Below are positions 22,762-60,726 of a stretch of 64,000 nucleotides of DNA, one piece after another. Made by a program: the position numbers and the translations under genes. Source of the stretch: Marinicella meishanensis (GTDB taxonomy: Bacteria; Pseudomonadota; Gammaproteobacteria; Xanthomonadales; Marinicellaceae); NCBI RefSeq assembly GCF_019931145.1, contig NZ_JAIOUV010000006.1:1-64000 (forward strand), given 5' to 3'. The notes below the pieces were generated by a model. The model was not told the DNA's origin and searched no databases. It was given only the letters and a program-made list of their open reading frames with translations. Position 1 is the first letter of the stretch, and each line of letters opens with the position of its first letter.

Positions 22762-22864
22762 AATGTGGTGACTGATGATACGAAATGTTGCTTTGTGAAC
22801 TCCGATTGAACTTGCCGGTTTTGATTTGTTACACCTATTTTCTGGCAAGGTATTATCACAGAAT

Positions 22865-22930
22865 GGAATACTCAAGGACAGGCGTTCGGCATAAAGAGGA
22901 ATACTCAAGGACAGGCGTTCGGCATAAAGG
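22865..22930. repeat. Two-copy 33-bp tandem repeat
   Basis: A 33-bp unit starting GGAATACTCAAGGACAGGCG occurs twice back to back (22865-22897 and 22898-22930); only the last base differs. The core GGACAGGC is the reverse complement of GCCTGTCC in the REP-like sequences at 1559 and 24279. It lies on the far side of the decayed RAYT gene, so it may be part of the element's other border. The rest of the gap 22762-23106 holds no gene I recognise. Confidence 0.7.
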
Positions 22931-23565
22931 TCAGCTTGAGAAAATTAGCTTGTTTTTGCTTTGATTGGCATTGATTTTTTAGGTCTTGTAGTGAGTGATA
23001 GCCTGAATCGGGTGATGCTTGTTGAATTTGGTTGGTTTTGCCAGATTTGAAATAAGTTGGGCTGTGGCAGACTGAATCTGCTGTTGATAAATTGATGGAT
23101 TCGACGCTATTCTAAAGCGGCTTTCAATCGCAATCCCATAGCGAATTTCTTGCCCACTTTGTGGCAGAAGTTTTTGAGTTGATCAACCGTACCAACTGCT
23201 GAGAATCCGACTGTTTTGAAGCCGGTCAATTCATCCATCCAAGTATCTGGATTGAGTCCCAGTCTATCGAGGATGGGTGGTAGGTTTTGAGGGATGTATC
23301 CGAGCTTGTTTTCAAGGATGGCCCGGCCTGAATAATCGACCAATTCCAAATATCCTGAGAGTGAAAAAGGCAGGTCTTTGTCGTCCTTGCCAAAGCCAAT
23401 CAATCGGGTGTTTGTGTTTTTGATGCGTTCATGAATCGAAGTGTAGTCAGATTGTTCAGGCGTCTTACACATGGCGGCCTTGATGGGGTTTAAGTCCACA
23501 TAAGCCATGCAAGTCAAAAGTGCCCGCTCATCCAGCAATGCCTGGCTTTTGAAGCGGGATTCCCA

Positions 23566-23640
23566 ATTAATTTGTCAGGAACAAATTAACCCATCGGCTT
23601 GCCGATGACCCATAGGGCTAACTCCAGGGATGGAGTTAGC
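23566..23640. repeat. 75-bp palindromic insertion with in-frame stop in RAYT
   Basis: On the plus strand the element is four hairpins in a row. TTAATTTGT pairs with ACAAATTAA (23567-23589). CATCGGC pairs with GCCGATG (23592-23607). CCC-ATA-GGG sits at 23609-23617. GCTAACTCCA (on the + strand starting at 23617) pairs with TGGAGTTAGC (23617-23640, 10-bp stem). Removing exactly these 75 bases restores the expected 'CTGHF-WESRF' of the RAYT family. The length is a multiple of three, but the read-through frame has a TGA after 21 codons. Confidence 0.8.
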
Positions 23641-23700
23641 AAAGTGGCCGGTACAACCATCTTCGATGTTGGCACGACGCGCAATGTATTCATTCAAACA

Positions 23701-23769
23701 CTTATTCGTCTCATCCATGAGACTCACCCCTGCGGGGCTTGCGTGAAAAATCGTTCCAGACGATTTTTT
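23701..23769. repeat. 69-bp in-frame palindromic insertion in RAYT
   Basis: On the plus strand this is three hairpins: GTCTCAT-CC-ATGAGAC (23708-23723), CCCC-TGC-GGGG (23727-23737) and AAAAATCGT-TCCAG-ACGATTTTT (23746-23768). On the coding (minus) strand it adds 'KKSSGTIFHASPAGVSL' plus six more residues between 'VSWFM' and 'CLNEYIARR', where other RAYT proteins run straight through as 'WFM(K/R)xLNE'. It may be 66 bp if one lysine is native. The layout (long stem, G/C core, long stem) resembles the 75-bp insertion 60 bp away, though the sequences differ. Confidence 0.75.
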
Positions 23770-24180
23770 CATAAACCACGAGACGTCCATCAAACGCTTG
23801 CGGTATGTTTCAGTCTTATTGATGACGAATTCCAACTCTGGCTTGGTCAGTTGCTCGCCCCTGACAAAGCGCTCACAGATTAAGGGTAAATCAAACAAGC
23901 CAGCCCAGGTCATCAGCACTCTTTTGTCTGCCCAATCCTTGGTTGAGCTGACTTTCAACACGATGTGAAAATGATTGCTCATGATGGCATAAGCACAGAT
24001 ATCCACGGCAAACAATTTGGCCAAAAACTGCATCCGATCTACAACCCATTTTCTGCGGTGTTCAAATGACCTGCCTGAGTCTTTATCTTCACCGCAAAGG
24101 AAGGCCCTGCGCACACAACGACTGACCACATGATAGTAGGGTGTTTCATCCACACAAATTTGGTATTTCCTGGCCAGGCC

Positions 24181-24207
24181 CATGGTTTTTCTCCATTTAA
24201 AACCATG
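24181..24207 (-). promoter_or_regulatory. Hairpin covering the RAYT start codon
   Basis: CATGGTTTT (24181-24189) pairs perfectly with AAAACCATG (24199-24207). The RAYT ATG is inside one arm (CAT at 24181-24183), so the folded mRNA would hide the start codon, and the ribosome-site region (GGAG) lies in the loop. Such a hairpin would keep transposase translation low. Confidence 0.5.
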
Positions 24208-24271
24208 ATTTTGGTTGTTCAGAAGAATTTTATCTGTGGCAAAGCCCTGATCGGCGTGTAAGAATATTTCT

Positions 24272-24312
24272 ATGGAGTGCCTGTCCCGAACTAACTCTGT
24301 CCCGAATTAACT
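24272..24312. repeat. REP-like flank with 16-bp tandem repeat
   Basis: ATGGAGTGCCTGTCCC (24272-24287) matches 1551-1567 apart from one extra base there. It runs into two adjacent 16-bp units, CTGTCCCGAACTAACT (24281-24296) and CTGTCCCGAATTAACT (24297-24312), with one difference. Sequences of this kind commonly flank RAYT genes and may be recognition sites for the transposase. Confidence 0.6.
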
Positions 24313-24433
24313 TTTGTGGTGGGTCAAGGGTTCGTTGAGCCTTTGGCAAATCGATGTTGTTTTATGTGCTGAATTGATGTGGGTGAATAAAAGATGTTTT
24401 TTCTCACATTTGTGAGGGGCTGTGATGAGTTTC

Positions 24434-60682: not shown

Positions 60683-60726
60683 AGATTTGAAATGACAAAG
60701 ATCGGCCACTTTGTCATTTCAAATCT
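60683..60726. terminator. 18-bp perfect hairpin after metalloprotease gene
   Basis: AGATTTGAAATGACAAAG (60683-60700) pairs perfectly with CTTTGTCATTTCAAATCT (60709-60726) around an 8-base loop. It starts 23 bp beyond the stop of the minus-strand metalloprotease gene and follows the MITE-like element. Without a T-run it is not a classic terminator; it could be a bidirectional terminator, an RNA-stabilising hairpin or another small palindromic element. Confidence 0.5.

Follow-up and report, generated by a model that had tools for sequence, protein, structure and literature searches.

A RAYT gene lying within 64,000 nucleotides of Marinicella meishanensis DNA (contig NZ_JAIOUV010000006.1; this whole stretch is called the window) is interrupted by two short runs of hairpins, which raises the question of how two palindromes came to lie in one gene of this family. 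Both inserts, E1 and E2, belong to a single family of small elements that are non-coding and non-autonomous, and each arose by an insertion of its own. The place struck by E1 is a hot spot, at which independent insertions have recurred in a site-specific, homing-like manner in the RAYT genes of other genera. We consider it probable that elements of this family have been inserted repeatedly at the Phe-Trp codons of RAYT genes, in one orientation, and that they are mobilised in trans as a folded strand.

Two hairpin elements in one RAYT gene

The interrupted gene runs from 24183 to 23107 on the minus strand. Two paralogues in the same genome, L018 (C10:468659) and L019 (C7:341085), share 95% and 86% identity with it over the first 138 residues, align without E1 and E2, and read uninterrupted across both places. 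Specifically, the paralogues read SWFM-KTLNEYIARRAN and CTGHF-WESRFKSQALLDE at the junctions, and the net insert lengths are 75 nt for E1 and 69 nt for E2, with end positions uncertain by about one base. L018 is truncated by a contig end further on, and the alignment with it covers the coding part. In the following list, the GGA strand is the one whose outer hairpin loops carry GGA, and R1 and R2 are two covariance models of the family.

23770..24183, minus strand: N-terminal RAYT part, 138 codons in an open frame, with the NHFH HUH motif; matched by both paralogues
23701..23769, minus strand (GGA strand is the RAYT coding strand): E2, 69-nt element adding 23 open codons; absent from L018 and L019, with an 84% identical copy; 71.3 bits with R1, as a training member
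23746..23768, minus strand: E2 outer hairpin 1, 9-bp stem, loop CTGGA on the GGA strand
23727..23737, minus strand: E2 small G/C hairpin, CCCC-GCA-GGGG
23708..23723, minus strand: E2 outer hairpin 2, loop containing ATGGAT
23641..23700, minus strand: middle RAYT part between the inserts, CLNEYIARRANIEDGCTGHF, from the reading frame and the paralogue alignment
23566..23640, plus strand (GGA strand opposite the RAYT coding strand): E1, 75-nt element with an in-frame TGA, at the F159/W160 junction; absent from L018 and L019; 68.5 bits with R1 and 61.5 bits with R2, both of which E1 trained
23567..23589, plus strand: E1 outer hairpin 1, 9-bp stem, loop CAGGA
23592..23607, plus strand: E1 inner hairpin A, CATCGGC-TT-GCCGATG
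23609..23617, plus strand: E1 inner hairpin B, CCC-ATA-GGG, a 3-bp stem as placed by the family alignment; a single-sequence fold has only 2 pairs there
23617..23640, plus strand: E1 outer hairpin 2, 10-bp stem, CCAGGGATGG apex
23107..23565, minus strand: C-terminal RAYT part, from WESRFKSQ to the stop, frame still open, profile positions 162-322

A reading of this DNA made from the letters alone (the sequence-only reading) had proposed two palindromic insertions of these lengths at these breakpoints. The paralogue alignment confirms both points, the hairpin runs being clean extra stretches. The claim that the second insertion is in frame also holds, as E2 forms 23 open codons in the RAYT frame. 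However, E1 carries an in-frame TGA, and because of it the N-terminal reading frame stops at 202 amino acids, inside E1. The RAYT gene of the window is broken. With E2 adding 23 residues and E1 ending translation, the product would not exceed a 202-residue fragment, in which the HUH motif is retained. Both insert lengths are multiples of three, as had been remarked, but divisibility by three was rejected as a rule of the family because a related insert in genome G260, described below, measures 70 nt.

The RAYT identity of the host gene is supported by L019, which scores 23.7 bits against PF01797 (cut-off 23) and 42.4 bits against NF047646 (E 6e-11, under the cut-off of 80). A further homologue, L074, reaches 21 bits with PF01797, under the cut-off, and the two RAYT pieces of the window have no Pfam match at 0.001. 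Residues H71 and H73 of the HUH motif are invariant in 16 RAYT rows.

Recurrent insertion at the Phe-Trp codons

The best 80 of 180 homologous loci from named genomes were surveyed, 78 of which are readable across the site (L028 and L099 do not span it). Three are interrupted, namely L067 and L091 from Psychromonas and L071 from Thalassomonas, all at the same two codons as E1, and the other 75 are uninterrupted. When R1 was run over 448 kb of RAYT loci, it returned three matches at E<=1, which are exactly those three inserts, and an R1 search of ten of the genomes revealed a second Thalassomonas RAYT gene, L158, with the same insert. The search was widened to 369 genomes of the class, taken as Gammaproteobacteria as inferred from named relatives; RAYT genes of this clade occur in 54 of them at E<=1e-40. 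A 70-nt insert of the E1 type at the same site in G260 (L197) was found through its element. Splits at the same profile position led to a shorter GGA-paired insert of 49-53 nt in G225, G311, G062 and G296 (L198, L199, L202 and L203). Overall, the invariant Phe-Trp codons are the point of interruption in ten RAYT genes. The E1 type accounts for six of these and the shorter type, 3-5 nt further on, for four.

At the junctions, all six E1-type inserts (own, L067, L091, L071, L158 and L197) sit at TTN^TGGGA, where the first codon is TTA in L091 and TTY in the others, and the own junction is ambiguous by one base. The shorter inserts lie at TTYTGG^GA in L199, L202 and L203 and at TTYTGGGA^ in L198. 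The GGA strand is opposite the RAYT coding strand in 10 of 10 interrupted genes, neither F159 nor W160 varies among 16 diverse RAYTs, and the junction table revealed no target duplication at the RAYT sites. We take TTCTGGGA as the RAYT target site of the element. The parts before the insert in L197, L198, L199 and L202 are clearly recognisable as RAYT, with best tblastn E values between 1e-48 and 1e-79. Four other broken RAYTs, in G055, G188, G332 and G246, have no recognised hairpin pair at the site; in that of G188 (L204), the stretch around LMDISWFMRVL is duplicated in tandem, and the sequence after it is unrelated. The shorter inserts have two GGA hairpins each, and three of them share a TGCCG core. 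The HUH motif of L071 has Tyr in place of its second His (NHYYLVL), so this RAYT looks dead irrespective of its insert.

This pattern bears on the idea that ordinary REP-like (repetitive extragenic palindromic) or RPE-like (Rickettsia palindromic element) sequences land randomly in genes, with RAYT as one unlucky target. Palindromes within protein genes are already known: PMC3733652 describes RPEs and intragenic GTAG/CGTC REPs, some of them two per gene and sometimes in frame. E2 behaves like such a randomly landing palindrome, and the likeness to RPEs drawn in the sequence-only reading fits this element, which keeps the frame open. The likeness fails for E1, for its stop-bearing homologues in L067, L091, L071 and L158, and for the G260 insert, whose length is not a multiple of three. 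Moreover, one junction of one gene family is hit repeatedly here, with six inserts at one junction and four 3-5 nt on, in ten RAYTs, and all three R1 matches in the 448 kb of RAYT loci lie at that site. We therefore regard random landing as quite unlikely. It is scarcely credible that the extra residues are ancestral and were lost from other RAYTs. Nothing beyond the limits of parsimony speaks for this; the residues are absent from both own paralogues and from 75 of the 78 readable homologues, the inserts near the site differ in length (49-75 nt) as well as in sequence, and in-frame stops were seen in own, L067, L091, L071 and L158, five of the six inserts at TTN^TGG. Two doubts attached to the insertion model, that near homologues carry the residues and that no other copy exists, are both answered by these paralogues and by the recurrence of the elements.

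The independence of the insertions was assessed on a tree (INDEPENDENCE) of 81 RAYT C-terminal parts, from which L202 was dropped as too short and in which long branches leave some places unsure. The nine interrupted rows stand apart and require nine changes, at least six of which are forced by well-supported branches. Shuffled labels give 8.7 changes, so the interrupted label is not clustered at all. In addition, the inserts are more alike than their host genes by sequence identity: 94% versus 80-84% for L067 and L091, 97% versus 75-81% (genes or flanks) for L071 and L158, and 83% versus 63-65% for L067 and L071. These values also bear on the possibility that the insert passes from one RAYT copy to another through gene conversion, or through transfer of interrupted genes as a whole, and not by transposition. 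In favour of this, Psychromonas and Thalassomonas have several RAYTs of this kind, and the inserts there are 82-97% identical. However, the flanks of L071 and L158 have diverged far more than their inserts, the own, G260 and Psychromonas inserts are unlike in sequence, and the closest gene to L067 among those compared is the uninterrupted L061 of the same genome, at 93% identity over the downstream 480 nt. Spread of this kind is thus improbable.

Several observations weigh against repeated, targeted insertion of a mobile element. The E2 site is used in none of the 78 readable homologues; E2 fits no repeated RAYT site, and the two hits in 200 bp do not establish a hot spot shared by both inserts. 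R2 does not match the four shorter inserts at E<=1, and their link to the family is by loops and orientation only. What precedes the insert in L203 (G296) is a gene start of about 16 residues fused to the Phe-Trp codons, so that most of the first half of the gene (about residues 17-158) seems to have been lost, and L158 has a frameshift upstream of its insert. Precise losses may account for single cases among the nine tree changes. Own E1 is 68-70% identical to the other inserts compared, with genes at about 60% downstream, a comparison that says little. Local structure was considered as a reason for the choice of the RAYT site, but the site is not clearly unpaired, its mean percentile in 73 homologues being 0.27 on the coding strand and 0.71 on the other. 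Finally, no strict target word was seen by eye at copies outside RAYT, and no moving enzyme was found.

Structure and settings of the element family

Members of the family are mostly 64-76 nt long and consist of two outer hairpins with GGA loops, between which lie one or two short G/C hairpins. The 84% identical copy of E2 is located at C13:14883-14951, and no close DNA copy of E1 was found elsewhere in its own genome. In an alignment of nine own copies, the GGA of the first loop is invariant and the stems differ, with hairpin 1 paired in all 72 lettered cells. R1, built from these nine, produces 24 matches in the genome at E<=10 and 21 at E<=0.002, nine of which are the training copies. Among the matches are the training copies, which include E1 and E2. 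Others lie in arrays behind tRNA-Ser(tga) and tRNA-Ser(gga) or between csrA and tRNA-Ser(gct), one lies beside the gene for transfer-messenger RNA (tmRNA), and a few are found elsewhere. Both inserts fold better than shuffled sequences, with z-scores against 200 shuffles of -4.28 and -3.93 for the two strands of E1 and -3.58 and -1.96 for those of E2.

Seventeen copies from the own genome, Psychromonas, Thalassomonas, Parahaliea and a Colwellia assembly have 86.3% of their cells paired and a covariation of 0.505, compared with 0.161 when shuffled. R2 was built from these copies, and 80 further stretches were fetched from the places that it listed, giving 85 matches and 84 distinct rows. Among these rows, 91.8% of cells are paired and covariation is 0.552 (0.156 shuffled), values that lean towards the model because R2 was used both to find the rows and to fit them. 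Pairing is lowest in helix 3, at 79.4%, and the GGA bases of both loops are retained in 81-84 of the 84 rows. The stems are kept by paired changes and the loops are fixed.

Loops, lengths and flanks were tallied on 79 of the 85 matches; L221, a duplicate, and five matches that came second within a stretch were set aside. Loop 1 is CGGGA in 37, CTGGA in 17, CAGGA in 12 and scattered among other forms in 13. The apex of hairpin 2 conforms to C-N(1-3)-GGA-N-G in 74, and 74 copies are 70-75 nt long within a range of 65-80. By eye, the elements mostly start with ACAAA, ACTAA or ACCAA. No Rfam model scored above its gathering cut-off over the element when three own loci and eight others were searched at E<=1. 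A weak match to AaHKsRNA22 in L185 reached 24.9 bits (gathering 39.8, E 0.62), and the remaining Rfam matches over elements were mainly to the tRNA beside an array.

R2 matches were found in 139 of the 369 class genomes at E<=1e-4, so that the hairpins sought on the strength of the sequence-only reading are present both in this genome and in relatives. Copy numbers per genome are lower bounds because only 13 candidates per genome were scored. The four other genomes of the own order, out of five, lack a match at E<=1e-4, and in two Psychromonas genomes the RAYT copy is the only one at E<=0.01. One copy (L180) had no blastn match in either the phage or the plasmid collection.

Flanks resembling a tRNA T-arm, of the form GTTCG^element^ATCC, are present in 15 of the 79 by a simple pattern and in more by eye. 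In the own genome, the arrays are tandem units behind tRNA-Ser(gga) and tRNA-Ser(tga) (L107:1143-1549 and L108:4501-5037), the unit in L107 measuring 169 nt. They contain repeats of a tRNA 3ˊ end in which the T-loop copy holds the element. Repeats of the tyrT type behind tRNA genes are likewise tandem units that repeat a tRNA 3ˊ end; here, unlike there, each unit carries a hairpin element in the T-loop copy. In one own array, a reversed element has apparently inserted inside another, just after the first hairpin (C13:14973-15036, L108:4974-5037). At C15:68868-68940 (L146), an own element adjoins the tmRNA gene with T-arm-like flanks. Two Parahaliea loci (L155 and L159) have two tandem units, each with an element, and the repeated piece resembles, by eye, the 3ˊ end of the elongation-factor-Tu gene tuf.

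Another setting lies behind csrA. In the own genome (L128, C15:91153-94308), five elements follow csrA in the same orientation (1093-1163, 932-1002, 720-789, 505-574 and 201-270 of that stretch), four before and one after tRNA-Ser(gct). Among the matches listed, seven genomes (the own and six others) were seen by eye to have an element on the strand of csrA and 277-1238 nt behind it. The same stretch holds tRNA-Ser(gct) in the own genome and in five of the six, and in those five the strong-scoring elements lie behind this tRNA gene; for G323, the 2 kb read at the csrA stretch revealed no tRNA. This neighbourhood was not counted as evidence for a link to CsrA because the adjoining tRNA-Ser gene may explain it.

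Possible movers and possible functions

Homing introns, inteins and integrases insert precisely and recurrently at one invariant motif, and they bring or use a known enzyme. By contrast, the insert described here has about 70 nt and no gene, and it strikes a gene family thought to spread REP hairpins. In the mechanism that we favour, a folded single strand of the element would be the moving form, and its two end hairpins would be recognised by an enzyme acting in trans, either of the HUH type or a comparable hairpin-recognising recombinase, which would join the element to a preferred target. As with homing introns and inteins, the invariant TTY-TGGGA would serve as a target that stays the same from genus to genus. 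These findings raise testable questions on what moves small bacterial palindromes and on whether hairpin elements are competitors that disrupt one another's transposase.

One candidate for the enzyme is RAYT itself. REP, BIME and REPIN elements, associated with RAYT (TnpA-REP), are small, palindromic, non-autonomous and dispersed in Gammaproteobacteria, and the present elements are similar in these respects and concern the same gene family. RAYTs act on hairpins, and this RAYT or a relative might move the GGA element into its own gene, by accident or as autoregulation. The element is more frequent in genomes with any RAYT (102/37/123/107, odds ratio 2.4, p 1.7e-4) and in those with this RAYT clade (28/111/26/204, odds ratio 2.0, p 0.02), both comparisons being uncorrected for kinship and genome size. 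However, the present elements differ from REPs in having three or four hairpins with GGA in both outer loops, in lying inside RAYT, and in occurring in genomes without a detectable RAYT. A REP is marked by a GTAG/CGTC foot on a single hairpin of 20-40 nt; no such tag is evident, and no shared foot was seen by eye in the 79 copies. Furthermore, 34 of the 139 element-bearing genomes, many of them drafts, have no detected RAYT of either kind (thresholds E<=1e-10 for NF047646 and E<=1e-40 for this clade), and among the matches listed no element lies beside a RAYT in G257, G266 or G311, by eye. The proposal of self-targeting in the sequence-only reading is therefore not upheld and is, in our judgement, unlikely, and RAYT as the mobiliser of the element is possible but weakened.

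The ends of IS200/IS605 elements and their short derivatives offer a second comparison. These ends carry subterminal hairpins and insert without target duplication, which corresponds to the end hairpins and the lack of a visible duplication at the RAYT sites. The present element, unlike IS200/IS605, has no internal transposase, no recognised partner, and no fixed target word outside the RAYT and T-arm sites.

The elements might instead be RNA modules that bind CsrA or RsmA through two hairpins per element that bear the CsrA word, with the arrays in tRNA trailers serving as CsrA sponges and insertion into RAYT a by-product. CsrB/CsrC and RsmX/Y/Z sponge RNAs are built from repeated GGA-loop hairpins, and the arrays of several units described here may be analogous. 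The present units differ in being dispersed, in lying as paired units in T-arm copies behind tRNA genes, and in having no Rfam match above cut-off. The apex of outer hairpin 2 is mostly CAGGATG, CCAGGGATG or CATGGATG and similar, which fits the CsrA consensus, given as RUACARGGAUGU in hairpin loops in PMC7937890. This match, an ARGGAU-type word in a hairpin loop, suggests a possible RNA function. G-U cells outnumber A-C cells on the GGA strand, 17 to 5 when hairpin 1 and inner hairpin 2 are taken together (p 0.017, for a subset chosen by the analyst) and 17 to 8 when every pair is counted. A csrA gene is present in the own genome, with arrays between it and tRNA-Ser(gct) and behind two further tRNA-Ser genes, and the element is more frequent in csrA-bearing genomes (126/13/186/44, odds ratio 2.3, p 0.012). 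However, in E1-type inserts the GGA strand runs opposite to the coding strand of RAYT, and GGA would therefore be missing from the RAYT mRNA. In addition, 13 element-bearing genomes, several of them incomplete, have no detected csrA, including two of one genus (G133 and G248), and the closeness to csrA may stem from the adjoining tRNA gene. We hold this explanation as a tentative one, with the balance somewhat against it. An extended version, in which widespread CsrA-type paired-hairpin elements without open reading frames home to the RAYT word and to T-loops in copies of tRNA ends, insert there precisely and in a single orientation, silence the transposase able to multiply rival hairpins and feed the Csr network through RNA arrays in tRNA trailers, is speculative and rather unlikely.

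Small palindromic non-autonomous elements are known as a kind; what is unusual here is the structure and the site preference. No description of the element, of an interrupted RAYT or of a RAYT insertion hot spot was found in the open-licence PMC literature, where absence is weak evidence. The occurrence in 139 of 369 genomes together with the CsrA-type loops suggests a source of GGA-hairpin RNA in Gammaproteobacteria for which that literature yielded no description.

Some further features of the gene and its surroundings were recorded. Tyrosines Y17, Y65, Y181 and Y231 are invariant among 16 RAYTs. The residue after LNE varies among P, H, F and Y, and the catalytic Tyr of this clade is consequently not obvious. 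The dN/dS ratio of the own gene against L018 is 0.14 before the inserts and 0.63 after them, from only 21 and 13 substitutions, which are too few to speak for relaxed selection following interruption; for L067 against L061 the values are 0.07 and 0.09 before and after the insert. Behind RAYT, positions 22861-22930 hold two tandem copies of a repeat of about 32 nt with GGACAGGC, and positions 24270-24330 before the gene hold a GACAGGCACTCC-like sequence; possibly, these are the own REP of the window RAYT. The inserts hold three of the 15 perfect stems in the window (at least 8 bp, loop 3-8), and five whole-window shuffles have 7-12 such places. The longest of these stems in the window, with a perfect 18 bp and an 8-nt loop, lies at 60683-60726.
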